Below, piece by piece: positions 11,715-41,172 of a stretch of DNA of 41,188 bases; the first letter of the stretch is position 1; each line of letters opens with the position of its first letter. The notes under the pieces were generated by a model. That model saw only the letters and a program-made list of their open reading frames with translations. It ran no database searches and was not told the DNA's origin. A program made the translations under genes and the position numbers. Source of the stretch: a virus; the IMG/VR virus record IMGVR_UViG_3300023180_000132, positions 1 through 41,188 of that record; one strand, 5' to 3'.

Positions 11715-12673
11715 TGAATCTACTTGAAGAAAGACAATATTACAAACCTTTTAATTATCCGTGGGCATTTGAGCATTACAAAACTCAACAGCATATGCAT
11801 TGGCTGCCGAGTGAAGTAAATCTTGCGGATGACTTAAGAGATTATCGTGAAAAACTGACTCCAGAAAATAGAAATCTTATCAATTCTATTTTTCGATTTT
11901 TCACGCAAGCAGACGTAGATGTGTGCTGTGGGTATGCAAAACACTATCTGCCTACTTTTAAACAGCCAGAAGTACGAATGATGCTTGCTGCTTTTGCAAG
12001 TATGGAAGCGGTACATCAAGAAGCCTACTCTTTATTGCTAGAAACTCTTGGATTTGACGATGATGAATATCAAAAATTCACAGAACATAAAGCAATGATG
12101 GATAAGCATGAGTATCTAAGCGACTTTGGAATGGATAATCCTATGAATATTGCAAAAACAATGGCAATATACAGTGGATTTACAGAAGGAGTGCAACTCT
12201 TTAGTAGTTTTGCGATTCTACTGAATTTTCCTCGTCACAATCTTATGAAAGGTATGGGACAGATTGTAACCTGGTCTGTGCGAGATGAAAGTCTGCACGT
12301 TGAAGGCATGAGTCAACTGTTTCGTACTTTTGTAAAAGAAAATCCAGAGGTATGGAATGATGATCTTAAATATCAAATCTACTGCGCTGCAGAAAGAACT
12401 GTGGATTTAGAAGATGCTTTTATTGATCTTTGTTTTGACGGTGCTGATGTACCAGATCTTACAGCGGAAGAAGTAAAAGAATATATTCGATACATTGCAG
12501 ATCGTAGACTTTTAGGTCTTGGAATGAAAAAGATTTTCAATAGTGAGAAGAATCCACTTGGGTGGCTAGACTATATGCTTAACGGAGTCGAGCATACAAA
12601 CTTCTTTGAAAATCGAGCTACAGAATATTCTCGTGCAAGTACAACAGGAAACTGGCAAGATATATTCAAATAA
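11714..12673 (+). CDS. nrdB: Class I ribonucleotide reductase small subunit
   Basis: Diiron-tyrosyl radical subunit, 319 residues from the ATG at 11714, which overlaps the methylase stop (TAATG) and has a GGGGA RBS; a GTG at 11702 is less likely. All metal ligands are seen: D67, E98, H101 (SMEAVHQEAY), E158 (FTEG), E192 and H195 (RDESLHVEG), with the correct spacing. The radical tyrosine Y105 is present four residues after H101, so this is a tyrosyl-radical enzyme and not a Phe-type class Ic. The C-terminus (TGNWQDIF) should dock on NrdA. It is the last gene of the plus-strand arm, followed at once by a terminator. Confidence 0.95.
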   Translation: MNLLEERQYYKPFNYPWAFEHYKTQQHMHWLPSEVNLADDLRDYREKLTPENRNLINSIFRFFTQADVDVCCGYAKHYLPTFKQPEVRMMLAAFASMEAVHQEAYSLLLETLGFDDDEYQKFTEHKAMMDKHEYLSDFGMDNPMNIAKTMAIYSGFTEGVQLFSSFAILLNFPRHNLMKGMGQIVTWSVRDESLHVEGMSQLFRTFVKENPEVWNDDLKYQIYCAAERTVDLEDAFIDLCFDGADVPDLTAEEVKEYIRYIADRRLLGLGMKKIFNSEKNPLGWLDYMLNGVEHTNFFENRATEYSRASTTGNWQDIFK

Positions 12674-12675
12674 AG

Positions 12676-12703
12676 AAAAGCCCGCTTAGTGCGGGCTTTT
12701 TAT
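12676..12703. terminator. Bidirectional intrinsic terminator between convergent arms
   Basis: AAAAGCCCGC (12676-12685), loop TTAGT and GCGGGCTTTT (12691-12700) form a GC-rich stem flanked by A and T runs on both sides, so it can end transcription from either strand. It lies 2 nt after nrdB and overlaps the end of the minus-strand adhesin gene. Confidence 0.93.
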
Positions 12704-36233: not shown

Positions 36234-36610
36234 GCTTCGTATACTCTTCTAAAAGTTGCTGATGCAGAATAAAAATCATCGTAAGAATAGTTTTGTGCAA
36301 AAGTATCACAAACTACTTTGATTGTAGTTTCTCCGCCGTTATTGCTATCTGGAATTGTATAGCTAAATGCAGTTGTTCCATTTAAGGAACCTAAGTATCC
36401 TGTAATATCATCTATCTCTTCTTTTGTACGATTATTAAAAGTAACATTAAATATTTCATCAATAGAATTAATTCCATCTGCTATACGTTGTTCATACCCA
36501 TCACCAAAACGAGCAACTAATACTCTAGGCGTAGACTGTCTCTGAAGCCCTCTATCAGGTAAAATGTCTCTGCTTCCATAAGTAGAAGTTGTTGTAAATC
36601 CAAGTGCCAT
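36230..36610 (-). CDS. Lambda gpM-like minor tail protein
   Basis: A 126-residue protein of the phage minor tail protein family, with family features PRVLVARFGDGYEQRIADGI near residue 28, FNVTFNNRTKEEIDDITGYL and a final FRRVYEA. The family forms the distal ring between tape measure and gpL. It is coupled by TAATG to the tape measure gene and by ATGA to gpL, keeping the lambda order H-M-L-K-I/J. Confidence 0.9.
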   Translation of the reverse strand: MALGFTTTSTYGSRDILPDRGLQRQSTPRVLVARFGDGYEQRIADGINSIDEIFNVTFNNRTKEEIDDITGYLGSLNGTTAFSYTIPDSNNGGETTIKVVCDTFAQNYSYDDFYSASATFRRVYEA

Positions 36611-39600
36611 TATGCTGCTCCATAGGGGCTAAGTATTCCGCCGGATCGTTTTTGATTTTGAAGTTCTAGTTGTACTGCTCGTGCAACAGCTTTTCCAATA
36701 TCTGCTCCTTGACCATTCTGGTCTACATTTGTAGAAGCGTTTCCTTGATTATCAATCGCTACATTTACAGTAACATTATTTTGTTGATTTGTTCCGCTCA
36801 TTTGAACAGGAATAGACTTTCCGTCCGGTAACGGAACTACTGCTTCTGTGCCGTGAAGAGTTACAGGATAACCACTATTAGGCCCTCTTGCAATTCCTCC
36901 GACTCCATAGGACATTTTTCTTCCTTCTGAAAATACACCGCCATTTCTTGCTACTCCCGCCGTATTGATACTACTAGCAGCATCTAAACTTCCAAAAGAA
37001 GGCGGAAGAGTTGGTCCTGCAGGCAACAGGAAAGAGCTAACTGCTCTAAATACCATCATTTTAACTATCATTTGAGCAATATCTCGTAAGATATTTAAAG
37101 CCATATCAGCAAATGCTTGTTTAACAGATTTAGTTCCATCAATTATACTTGTTAAGCCATTACTGATATTATCAGTTATAGATGTAAATATTTGCTGCTT
37201 ATTTTCTAGTAAAAGCATTAGTTCTTGCTGGGCAGTAATCTCATTCAACAAATTTTCTTGATCTATTAAACTTAGCTCTACACCTTGTTTTTTAAGATCT
37301 ATCAACTTTTCCTCGAAGGCTTGTTGAATAGGATTAAAAGATATTGCATTTATTTTTGCTTGTGTCAGCTCATTTTCTGCTTTGACAGAATTAATTGTAG
37401 AATCAGCAATTCTTTCTTGTATATTTAATTGTTGATTAAGAGTTGCTATTCTCTGTAACGCTGCTACTTCAGCAGCTTCATCTGCTTGAATTTGATTAGG
37501 ATCAGAAAATTCTCGCCTAGATAGTCTTATTCTAGCTGCTTCTAACTCTTGTGATGCGACTAATCTTTGAGCTTTTAAAGCTCTTATCTCATTTTCTCTT
37601 TGTTGCCTAGCTTGAGTAAATCCAAAAGAAACAATTCCAGATTCTATTCTTAGTCTTTGCAGTTGCAAAGCATTCAGTTGCTTTGTAGCAGCTAATTGAT
37701 CGTATTTATTTTTTAGAAGCCTTTCTTGAGTGTCTAGTTGGTACTCTTCCATCTCTTGACGCATTTCATCTAAGAAATTTTGATCTTCTACTACTCCTAA
37801 TCTTTCTTCTGCTAAAGCGAGTTCTCGTTCTGCTCCGAGCAGGCGTACATCTTGAGCATCTACTCCTTGCTGACGAAGCCCTTCTAATTTTGCTTCTGCT
37901 CCGATAATTGCTTGACGAGCTTGTAATACCTTATTATCTCTTGCTAGAGCTTTTGTTTGTAGATTAATTTTCTTATCTTCAAAAGTTATACCTAGAGTTG
38001 TTTGCTTTAAAATTTCTCTTTCGTTTCTTAACTGAGTATCTTGATTTTCTAATAGTGTCTGACGTATTCGGGCTAAATTAGTAAAATTTGTAACGTTAGT
38101 TACTACTGTCTCATTTAAAGCATCTAATTGCTCTTGCTCTCCTAATCCTTGACGCACAAACTCTTTTACTTCATCTGTAGCTGTTTCTATTTTTGCTAGC
38201 TCCGAATCTATTCTTTTTTGGGCCGCATTTAAAACAGTTACAGATTCTTGTAGCCTTGATTGACTGGTCTGTAAAACTTGGTCTACAATAGTAGCAGTTG
38301 GGGTTCCAATAAGTTTTTGTAAATCTGCTGTAAGCTGTTCTTGAGATCTTACCAAATTTTGACTAGCTTGAGAGGCTTCTATATATGAATTAGAAAGTTT
38401 AGTAAGTTCTGCTATTTGAGCTTCTGTTAAATCTGCTCCAGATTCTAAGGAAGTTAGTAACGGCTGAAATTCTTTATCTATTTTTACTAATTCTGATGCA
38501 ATTCCTGATAAAGTTGCAACAGCTTCTGTACTGCTTCTATCTATTTCATTAATGTCGAGAGCGAAATTTAATACATCTGCTGTTGCAAGAGCATTGCCTA
38601 AACTCTCCACTTCTTGACGTAAGGACATTATACCTAAATCTCTTCCTTGTCGAGACCTGGATAGTTCCTCTTCCAAGCTACTATACTTTCCTAAAACTCT
38701 TTCTGTTTGAAGCGCTAATTCATCATTGCCTTCTTTCACTTTGTTAAAAAACTTTTCTTGTATAAAGTTGTATGCTTGGACTGCAAAATCTTTTATGAGA
38801 AAAAGAATTCCAATAAAAGAAATTGCTTTAAAAGCCTTATCAACAGCCTTTGCTGCAAAAGCACTTGCTGTTGCAATTCCTCTCATCGCACCTTTCCAAG
38901 CTGTGCCCACTCCCGCACTTGCTATCTTTAAAACACCTCCGGTTGTTTTCCAATGCCTTTTAATTGTATCTGTGGCTTTTTTACTATTATTTACAATATT
39001 ATCCAGATCTGCTTTAATTCTTTGCTTCGCTCTTGGGTCTATTCCCTTAAAAGCTCCGGTTTCTTTTTCAAGACTTGATCTCAGCCCTACCGCTTGTCTA
39101 AGGCTTATTTGTTCTCCCGATTGAAGTTGTGCTCCCGCACTTCCTTTTCTAAACTCTAATCCCTGAAGTCTTTTTTGTAATTTTGATACTGATTTTTGTT
39201 TTGTAAATTCCGCCTCAGTAACAGAGGTTAATTTCTTTAAGTTTGCAGCAGACTCTTGATAAGCTTCCTTTTGTTTTTTAGCTGCTTCAGTAGCAGAGGT
39301 TCCCCAATCTTCCAAATTTGGTATAATAGATTTTACAATAGGAACTGCAAATAAAGCTAAGGCCGCAACTAAAGCGCCTGTATTTTTGTTTAAAAATTGA
39401 AATACAGGGGTAAGACCTTCTGTAATTCCCCTTCTTAAAGTGTTTAGCAGTTCGTCAAACGAACGAGTAAATTGATTTAATGCAAAAGCATCAGGATCCA
39501 TTACCTCTTCTAAAGCTGAAAATTTTTGCTCTGCCTGCGTTAAGACTTCATTTACAACTGCTTGACTTTTTTCAAATGTTGTAAGTTGAGAAACAGGTTT

Positions 39601-40233
39601 TCCTATTGCAGCAGCATAATTTCTAGTTGCAGTATCTAAACGTAGTATAATACCTAATTCATCTAAAAGTTCTGGTTCTGCCTTTGTAACACCTCTCACT
39701 AGACGATTGAAAGAGTCTGTTAAATCTCTTCCTAAAGCAAGAGAAACATTTTTTGCAGCAGTTCCTAACTCTGTTAATTGGCCAGAAGTTAGTCCTGCTG
39801 CTGTTCCTATTGCTGCAGCTCTAGCTGCTTCTGAATATTTTAATTGTCCTTCTGTTGCCTCTACAAGGGCATTTGAAATAGTTTTATATCCTACTCCAGT
39901 AGTTAAAGTTAATGCTTCTTGGCCGCGAATAAGGTTTGTAAAATCAAAAGCATTTTGTAAAAATTGAAATGCTGCCGTAACCGCAAATACTTGAGCTGCA
40001 AGAGTTGCATAGGCAGGCACAAGTCCTCCACTAATTCCTTGTGCCATTTTTGAAAAGTTTTTAGTTGAATTAGAGGAAGTACGAGCAGCACCTTTTAAAT
40101 TACGATCTGCAGTTTGAGCACCTTTAGCAGTTCTTTCTAATCCTTCTCCTGCTGCTTTTGCTTTCTTGCCAAGAACAGATAGATTACCTTGATCGTCTAT
40201 CTTTACTTTTATATTTATCGTATTATCAGCCAT
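36610..40233 (-). CDS. Tape measure protein
   Basis: A 1207-residue tail length determinant. Hydrophobic segments near residues 75-95, 281-297 and 470-485 (FIGILFLIKDFAV) could insert in the membrane during ejection. Residues about 500-1010 are long, helical and Gln/Glu-rich coiled coil. The C-terminus has LHGTEAVVPLPDGKSIPVQM, a classic mark of tape measure proteins. By the lambda rule (about 0.15 nm per residue) a tail of some 180 nm is expected; this is a rough inference. The start overlaps the stop of the frameshifted chaperone gene (TAATG). Confidence 0.95.
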   Translation of the reverse strand: MADNTINIKVKIDDQGNLSVLGKKAKAAGEGLERTAKGAQTADRNLKGAARTSSNSTKNFSKMAQGISGGLVPAYATLAAQVFAVTAAFQFLQNAFDFTNLIRGQEALTLTTGVGYKTISNALVEATEGQLKYSEAARAAAIGTAAGLTSGQLTELGTAAKNVSLALGRDLTDSFNRLVRGVTKAEPELLDELGIILRLDTATRNYAAAIGKPVSQLTTFEKSQAVVNEVLTQAEQKFSALEEVMDPDAFALNQFTRSFDELLNTLRRGITEGLTPVFQFLNKNTGALVAALALFAVPIVKSIIPNLEDWGTSATEAAKKQKEAYQESAANLKKLTSVTEAEFTKQKSVSKLQKRLQGLEFRKGSAGAQLQSGEQISLRQAVGLRSSLEKETGAFKGIDPRAKQRIKADLDNIVNNSKKATDTIKRHWKTTGGVLKIASAGVGTAWKGAMRGIATASAFAAKAVDKAFKAISFIGILFLIKDFAVQAYNFIQEKFFNKVKEGNDELALQTERVLGKYSSLEEELSRSRQGRDLGIMSLRQEVESLGNALATADVLNFALDINEIDRSSTEAVATLSGIASELVKIDKEFQPLLTSLESGADLTEAQIAELTKLSNSYIEASQASQNLVRSQEQLTADLQKLIGTPTATIVDQVLQTSQSRLQESVTVLNAAQKRIDSELAKIETATDEVKEFVRQGLGEQEQLDALNETVVTNVTNFTNLARIRQTLLENQDTQLRNEREILKQTTLGITFEDKKINLQTKALARDNKVLQARQAIIGAEAKLEGLRQQGVDAQDVRLLGAERELALAEERLGVVEDQNFLDEMRQEMEEYQLDTQERLLKNKYDQLAATKQLNALQLQRLRIESGIVSFGFTQARQQRENEIRALKAQRLVASQELEAARIRLSRREFSDPNQIQADEAAEVAALQRIATLNQQLNIQERIADSTINSVKAENELTQAKINAISFNPIQQAFEEKLIDLKKQGVELSLIDQENLLNEITAQQELMLLLENKQQIFTSITDNISNGLTSIIDGTKSVKQAFADMALNILRDIAQMIVKMMVFRAVSSFLLPAGPTLPPSFGSLDAASSINTAGVARNGGVFSEGRKMSYGVGGIARGPNSGYPVTLHGTEAVVPLPDGKSIPVQMSGTNQQNNVTVNVAIDNQGNASTNVDQNGQGADIGKAVARAVQLELQNQKRSGGILSPYGAA

Positions 40234-40616
40234 TAGCCTTTAACATTATGGGTGTAGTTTTTTCCACCGCTTTTTGACTTACGTTCGTCTGCTTTACGCT
40301 TTCTTTCTGCCTCTTCGAATCTGTAATTCATTAATATTCTTTCATATGCCTTCATAAAGTATAGGACTTGTTTTCTATCCTCTACTGCATATGTGGAAAA
40401 TAGTAGGTCACATCCTGACCAGTCCTTTCCCATATAAGAGCCTGACATTCCTTCCCAAACATCTGAGAGAAGATTAAACATAAAAAATGCCACTTGCACC
40501 TCGCCAGGAAAATCTGACTCGGTAAGCGGCATCTTTTGGGGGTCAGGCTCTTCGCCTAATTGCTCACATACAGATAAATATTTATCTATATTAAAGTTTG
40601 AGTTCTGTTCTCTCAC
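40233..40616 (-). CDS. Tail assembly chaperone T-region, made by -1 frameshift from the upstream gene (G-T fusion 40233-41083)
   Basis: The frame is open from 40233 to 40672 in -1 relative to the upstream gene. The only candidate start is a GTG at 40616 without an RBS, so independent translation is unlikely. Translating across the slippery site gives a 283-residue fusion: 141 residues of G, then YWEQVERVQDLLARYVREQ and the rest (142 residues). The T part has a C40-free acidic middle and a basic tail (EAERKRKADERKSKSGGKN) as expected for binding the tape measure. In lambda gpGT links the tape measure and major tail protein and is not in the virion. Confidence 0.82.
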   Translation of the reverse strand: MREQNSNFNIDKYLSVCEQLGEEPDPQKMPLTESDFPGEVQVAFFMFNLLSDVWEGMSGSYMGKDWSGCDLLFSTYAVEDRKQVLYFMKAYERILMNYRFEEAERKRKADERKSKSGGKNYTHNVKG

Positions 40617-40621
40617 ATAGC

Positions 40622-40667
40622 GAGCAAGTAGGTCTTGAACTCTTTCTACTTGCTCCCAGTAAAATTT
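40622..40667 (-). promoter_or_regulatory. Programmed -1 ribosomal frameshift signal (slippery heptamer and stem-loop)
   Basis: On the minus strand A AAT TTT (40667-40661) is an in-frame X XXY YYZ heptamer (zero-frame Asn-Phe). After a 5-nt spacer a perfect 10-bp stem GAGCAAGTAG / CTACTTGCTC (40655-40646 with 40631-40622) closes a 14-nt loop. The zero-frame stop TAG (40648-40646) is inside the stem. Confidence 0.9.
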
Positions 40668-41083
40668 TCTAAGTCACCTACTGTTTCTGTTACCCAAGTA
40701 TCAAATACATTAGAGTTTTTCATTAACAATTCTGCATTTTCTTGAGTAAAAGGCAGTTGATCATTAGCATCTTGAGAAGAAACATCCACCAAAAGAAACT
40801 CTTCTAAGTATGAATATTTAAACCCTGACCACGTTTTGATAACTGCTTTAACGTATTCTTTTAAAAACTTATCTTCGTCTAACTCTTCTTCAGGCTGACG
40901 AGTTTTCTTATTAAATTTTGTTGTTACGCACTTCTTTCGAAGTTTTACCAGTTCATCTCTTCCAAGATAACACAAATCAACAGTTAGACCATCATACCCA
41001 GGAAAATCTATTGTTACTGTTTTGCTTGGAGTCATAAGACTCGCGAGTGATACTGGTTCCTTTTTTACTGCTGCCTCTGTCAT
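40646..41083 (-). CDS. Tail assembly chaperone, gpG-like
   Basis: A 145-residue protein, acidic overall, beginning MTEAAVKKEPVSLASLMTPS with a YDGLTVDLCYLGRDELVKL segment typical of tail assembly chaperones. Position between a presumed major tail protein (outside the window) and the tape measure gene supports the role. AAGGA RBS at about 41092-41098. The last codons carry the slippery site that yields the longer G-T fusion. It likely coats the hydrophobic tape measure before tail tube assembly. Confidence 0.82.
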   Translation of the reverse strand: MTEAAVKKEPVSLASLMTPSKTVTIDFPGYDGLTVDLCYLGRDELVKLRKKCVTTKFNKKTRQPEEELDEDKFLKEYVKAVIKTWSGFKYSYLEEFLLVDVSSQDANDQLPFTQENAELLMKNSNVFDTWVTETVGDLENFTGSK

Positions 41084-41104: not shown

Positions 41105-41131
41105 AAAAAAGTAGGGAGGCCGATACCTCCC
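41105..41131 (-). terminator. Terminator-like hairpin in the leader of the tail assembly genes
   Basis: On the minus strand GGGAGG (41131-41126), loop TATCGG and CCTCCC (41119-41114) are followed by TAC and T6 (41110-41105). It starts only about 6 nt after the expected transcription start of the promoter at 41144-41172, so it is either an attenuator or a partial terminator for transcripts arriving from the major tail gene. Confidence 0.7.
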
Positions 41132-41143
41132 CACGTTCTTTAT

Positions 41144-41172
41144 AGTATAATTCAAAACACCATAAATGTCAA
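41144..41172 (-). promoter_or_regulatory. Sigma70-type promoter for the tail operon
   Basis: On the minus strand TTGACA (41172-41167), a 17-nt spacer and TATACT (41149-41144). Transcription should start near 41137, giving a leader of about 54 nt that contains the hairpin at 41114-41131 before the chaperone gene. Confidence 0.82.

Follow-up and report, generated by a model that had tools for sequence, protein, structure and literature searches.

The G/GT pair of phage lambda is the closest described relative of the locus reported here. Its -1 frameshift was reportedly described by Levin in 1993 and by Xu, Hendrix and Duda in 2004, and takes place on a heptamer that we take to be GGGAAAG. The lambda-type frameshift itself is already well known in phages. 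In lambda, the two products are balanced at about 30:1 (PMC5009743). A second group of -1 signals, typified by E. coli dnaX and IS911, carries a Shine-Dalgarno (SD)-like element upstream of the heptamer and a hairpin 4-10 nt downstream of it (PMC3711429, PMC4066793). Stimulatory hairpins are expected to start 4-10 nt past the motif, to have a G-C closing pair and to require an unfolding dG of at least 7.6 kcal/mol (PMC4066793). The R_RR.U_UU.Y class of slippery motifs, which includes A_AA.U_UU.U, has been described as unexpectedly shifty in E. coli (PMC4066793).

We analyzed a 41,188-bp record of an uncultured virus, here called the window at its full length, in which all junction elements are read 5' to 3' on the minus strand (Table 1). 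The original prediction was of a lambda gpG/gpGT-like -1 frameshift between two tail chaperone frames, and it is supported by homology, tail context, and conservation. The upstream (G-like) and downstream (T-like) proteins match the tail assembly chaperones phrog_313 (E 1.8e-12) and phrog_3914 (E 2.1e-17), respectively. The next gene downstream of T on the same strand encodes a lambda-type tape measure protein, which we propose to be the client of the chaperones; tail genes resembling gpM, gpL, and gpK of lambda come next. The sequence itself shows the layout of the junction, its homology and conservation, the selection acting on the hairpin, and the absence of an initiation signal for T. On this basis we assign a probability of about 0.95 to a lambda G/GT-type programmed -1 frameshift that joins two tail-assembly-chaperone frames upstream of the tape-measure gene.

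Table 1. Features of the chaperone junction and its surroundings in the window.
Feature	Position	Strand	Basis or remark
Upstream (G-like) cistron, 145 aa	40649..41083, ATG at 41083	minus	ORF; zero-frame stop codon 40646-40648
Downstream (T-like) segment, 142 aa after predicted -1 slippage (YWEQVERV...)	40236..40661	minus	stop codon 40233-40235
Slippery heptamer A_AAT_TTT	40661..40667	minus	in frame in 91/91 distinct junctions
Spacer ACTGG, 5 nt	40656..40660	minus	sequence reading
5' arm of predicted stimulatory stem, GAGCAAGTAG	40646..40655	minus	contains zero-frame stop TAG
3' arm of predicted stimulatory stem, CTACTTGCTC	40622..40631	minus	covariation and synonymous-recoding test
14-nt loop, AAAGAGTTCAAGAC	40632..40645	minus	GAGTTC (40642-40637) within loop
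SD-like AGGTGA	40674..40679	minus	6 nt upstream of heptamer
Non-conserved GTG, T start a gene finder would pick	40614..40616	minus	judged unused
GAACTC, possible pseudoknot partner of loop	40600..40605	minus	p 0.03 in the window's subclade
Tape measure protein gene	36610-40233	minus	phrog_3779 E 4.5e-48, phrog_1538 E 9.7e-13; weak Tape_meas_lam_C
Sigma-70 type promoter TTGACA-17-TATACT, chaperone/tape-measure genes	41144..41172	minus	11/12 match
Terminator-like hairpin, then TTTTTT	41111..41134	minus	-17.2 kcal/mol, z -4.6; between promoter and SD

Around the heptamer the zero frame reads ..GAA AAT TTT ACT GGG AGC AAG TAG, and the positions foreseen for the zero-frame A AAT TTT, the 5-nt spacer, the 10-bp stem, the 14-nt loop, and the stop inside the stem are exact to the base. 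The T frame was also correctly placed as opening 6 nt before the heptamer, being closed by a TGA at 40676-40674 and open from 40673. The G reading frame (41083-40646) overlaps this open frame of the -1 register by 28 nt, and the fusion of 283 residues comes out as 141 + 142 with the junction ..GDLENF-YWEQVERV... The rarity of the heptamer was dropped as evidence because the 13,398 codons of the window genes hold 9 in-frame copies of AAATTTT. The heptamer goes beyond chance because it is sited in the 28-nt overlap and is conserved in all 91 distinct junctions, one of them as TTTTTTT. Searches of the window returned no Rfam match and no tRNA gene.

In the mechanism that we propose, most ribosomes would stop at the TAG (40648) and yield the 145-aa chaperone. 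A minority would pause at the hairpin, which opens with its 5' arm 5 nt beyond A_AAU_UUU, and the SD-like AGGUGA upstream may assist the slippage. Both tRNAs would then move back by one base, the Asn tRNA from AAU to AAA and the Phe tRNA from UUU to UUU, and the slipped ribosomes would read on through the T frame to give a minor 283-aa G-T fusion. The slippage itself, its efficiency, and the roles of both products are inferred: coating of the tape measure protein would fall to the short form, and recruitment of tail-tube subunits to the fusion.

Two IMG/VR scans provided 159 loci that encode both proteins, with 91 distinct junctions among them. The original prediction had named the loss of both heptamer and overlap in relatives, in advance, as evidence against it. 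Both are kept in 159/159 loci, where T lies in the -1 frame and overlaps G. The in-frame heptamer of the 91 distinct junctions is AAATTTT in 90 and TTTTTTT in one (L142), a substitution that leaves the site slippery, and the zero-frame stop lies 12 nt past the heptamer in 85 junctions and 21 nt past it in 6. A Vibrio phage query added twelve deeper relatives with a T identity of 31-46%, and these also keep AAATTTT and the -1 overlap. An error of sequencing or assembly within a single gene could in principle mimic the overlap, as A/T runs are prone to single-base homopolymer errors, which are frequent there. However, the identical frame relation is present in 159 contigs from many samples and in a bacterial MAG; such conservation rules out an artefact, the chance of which we regard as negligible. 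A scan of bacterial genome contigs gave one match, L321 (contig NZEU01000016.1). It belongs to a Porticoccaceae MAG, and both the heptamer of the window and a stem are present. This match hints weakly at a marine gammaproteobacterial host, and the contig may be a binned phage contig.

A different reading is that T has a translation start of its own at the GTG (40616), or is reached by reinitiation after termination at the G stop; the heptamer and hairpin would then be by-products. The GTG is in the T frame and only 30 nt past the G stop, and coupled reinitiation is common in phage operons. However, an SD accompanies the first T start codon in 0/44 lineages, as anticipated for a downstream frame without an RBS, compared with 41/42 lineages for G (in the window AAGGA, 41096-41092, minus strand). 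The first T start codon falls at median residue 42, inside conserved domain sequence, and T residues 17-42, which precede it in about half of the lineages, are under purifying selection (pN/pS about 0.3). The GTG itself has no SD, the usual codon at its position in relatives is GTA, and a start there would cut away a conserved segment of T. The heptamer, kept in every distinct junction, also speaks against this reading. An independent start, having neither an SD nor a conserved start codon, was rejected and is highly improbable.

The hairpin provides a second line of evidence for the frameshift. The perfect 10-bp stem of the window has a folding energy of -13.2 kcal/mol (z -3.63) and is one of 6 perfect inverted repeats (arms of at least 10, loops of 3-20) in 41 kb, compared with 0-2 in shuffles. 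In a recoding test, the protein was held fixed, the synonymous codons after the zero-frame stop were redrawn, and the fold stabilities were compared. The mean z was -2.41 over 44 lineages, all 44 of which fell below the null mean and 70% of which reached p < 0.05. The combined Fisher p is about 4e-29, uncorrected for shared ancestry, and such combined values overstate independence because the sequences share ancestry. The same test on control regions 90-270 nt downstream gave a mean z of -0.48 to +0.09. Weak hairpins occur in a few lineages (L142, L049, L060, L063, and L026).

The original prediction had proposed relatives as a check on the stem, and this comparison was favorable. The longest stem sits in the register of the window in 75/91 junctions. 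In an alignment of 70 sequences with a stem in this register, the covariation of the named stem is 0.213 versus 0.117 for shuffled sequences (0/500 as high), with two-sided changes at 6 pairs, and slid registers score 0.045-0.097. Where the standard stem is lost, a stem is in most cases rebuilt in another register (L018, L065, L131, L137, L145, and L161). The 3' arm is shifted by a few nt in L018, an CCCGAATA-type arm farther downstream does the pairing in the L065/L131/L137/L161 group, and in L145/L150 a stem of 11 bp encloses a 21-nt loop. That replacement stems arise in other registers is the best reason to think that structure matters here, and not sequence alone. According to these sequence comparisons, selection maintains the hairpin over and above the encoded protein.

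The hairpin could nevertheless serve mainly in mRNA stability, attenuation, or start-codon hiding, with the heptamer alone sufficient for slippage. Relatives with GGGAAAC or a +1 frame, described below, have no consistently selected hairpin, and the protein pair can therefore be produced without such a structure. Against this, in most lineages a distance of 5 to about 10 nt separates the heptamer from the start of the hairpin, and selection on the hairpin tracks AAATTTT, with a mean z of -2.41 and -2.08 in two AAATTTT sets and a z of -1.5 to -3.5 in AAATTTT freshwater loci, compared with +0.33 in +1 loci. We therefore consider a purpose other than frameshifting to be very unlikely.

It is also conceivable that the stimulator is not a plain hairpin but an H-type pseudoknot, in which the loop GAGUUC would pair with the downstream GAACUC. 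Six perfect pairs are formed in the window and its nearest relatives, the best pairing has p 0.03 against synonymous recoding in the subclade of the window, and in L018, read by eye, the partner is GAGCTC and the pairing is retained. However, with 44 lineages tested, a p of 0.03 in a single one is unremarkable, and chance pairing is likely given the repeat GAACAGAAC. Across the 44 lineages no conserved loop-downstream helix and no excess of loop-downstream pairing were seen (combined p about 1), and the pseudoknot was rejected as a general stimulator. We regard it as an unlikely, though not negligible, form of the stimulator, and the plain hairpin is preferred. Upstream of the heptamer, AGGTGA is present in 20/30 lineages that encode V-G-D, compared with 11% expected from codon usage, mainly through the choice of GGT. 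The motif is not universal, and it includes the stop (TGA) of the -1 frame; by analogy with dnaX, it may act as an upstream stimulator. The original prediction did not mention the SD-like AGGTGA, the stem covariation, or the possible pseudoknot, nor that some relatives switch both signal and direction.

This switch is seen in two groups of relatives. Some freshwater-type IMG/VR relatives carry GGGAAAC, placed one codon ahead of where AAATTTT would lie (L295, L298, L299, L306, L308, L309, L312, L313, and L317). They share with the window the homologous pair, the -1 frame, and the overlap, but differ in the position of the heptamer and in a hairpin that is mostly without consistent selection. 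The AAATTTT loci L293, L294, L302, and L311 fall in one clade with them, and sister AAATTTT loci have a selected hairpin. The second group comprises the Demerecviridae (T5-family) loci L163-L172, L267-L292, L318-L320, and L322-L324. Among these, L267, a 121,750-bp isolate record in IMG/VR, presumably represents T5 itself. Both G and T of this family are homologous to the pair of the window, and the change of frame falls at the same invariant Phe codon. Unlike in the window, T overlaps in the +1 frame, no heptamer is present at the site, the recoding test saw no selection on a hairpin (mean z +0.33), and the records inspected annotate two separate genes. TTT_CGT or TTT_CGA, near the end of the first frame, is found at the invariant Phe codon in 42/42 T5-family loci. 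From the G stop to the T start of the annotation there are 20 codons, which are under strong purifying selection when read in the +1 frame (pN/pS 0.14, compared with 2.0 and 8.7 for the others), and the annotated T starts that were checked have no clear SD.

UUU_CGU is the published +1 site of influenza PA-X, with the P-site tRNA moving from UUU to UUC (PMC3498833). The chaperone of phage Sugarland has been described as lacking a predicted frameshift signal, like that of T5 (PMC6256483). A -2 slip would reach the same frame in the T5 relatives, but it was set aside, since tRNA-Phe would need to re-pair on CUU or ACU, and a +1 slip (UUU to UUC) is preferred for this reason. In a tree of 50 joined proteins, which has some long branches and a midpoint root, as few as 3 changes account for the three signals, and a 100/99 branch sets the +1 group apart on one side. 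We consider it likely that the orthologous chaperone pair keeps its fusion while the signal is swapped between A_AAU_UUU with a hairpin, G_GGA_AAC, and UUU_CGU/CGA, and that T5 makes its GT by a +1 slip at the same Phe codon. T5-type chaperone genes are also present in PQ773600, OR848532, and MG065692, which are labelled as Corynebacterium, Listeria, and Campylobacter phages, respectively; either the hosts are possibly mislabelled or the records contain contaminating sequence.

The surroundings of the junction contain further candidate signals. A promoter match of at least 10/12 is found in 39/40 lineages. The terminator-like hairpin of the window begins within about 10 nt of the promoter and ahead of the chaperone SD, and its position relative to the promoter varies among lineages, some having it downstream and others upstream. 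It is possibly an attenuator or a 5' stabiliser. Elsewhere in the window, AAAAGCCCGC at 12676-12700 is a perfect 10-bp inverted repeat with a 5-nt loop, located between convergent genes that end at 12673 and 12703, and is probably a bidirectional terminator.

The comparison shows that the signal of a lambda-type frameshift is conserved in well over 100 relatives. The annotation of a large group of uncultured marine phages is thereby corrected, as otherwise a wrong T start would be assigned and the fusion missed. The hairpin represents a clear case of an RNA stimulator that is kept, and repeatedly re-registered, through selection at synonymous positions. When predicted -1 sites of E. coli and mobile elements were surveyed, hairpins seemed relevant in one phage cluster only (PMC4066793), and a well-supported hairpin is for this reason of some value. 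The part likeliest to surprise a specialist is the comparison with T5, as T5 and its kin appear to use a +1 shift at UUU_CGU for the same pair despite their description as signal-less. If this is true for T5, the G/GT pair and its ratio are what is conserved in tail assembly, and not the slippage mechanism.

Compared with the known systems, the locus has the overlapping chaperone frames, the position directly upstream of the tape measure gene, the conserved heptamer, and the T frame without an initiation signal that characterize lambda G/GT (reviewed in PMC5009743). The heptamer is of the canonical X_XXY_YYZ form, the direction is -1, and a short G and a long GT are predicted, as in lambda. 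Unlike in lambda, the heptamer is AAATTTT and not GGGAAAG, and a strong covarying hairpin lies 5 nt downstream. In having a heptamer with a downstream hairpin, and perhaps in its SD-like element, the locus resembles the dnaX and IS911-type signals, although the gene and the heptamer are different, and the AGGTGA, which is not universal, is only 6 nt from the heptamer, at the near end of the 6-17 nt expected for such an element. With a start 5 nt past the motif, a G-C closing pair, and 13.2 kcal/mol, the hairpin has the properties expected of a stimulator (PMC4066793), and its conservation by covariation places it with the hairpin-stimulated -1 PRF of the dnaX/IS911 class.
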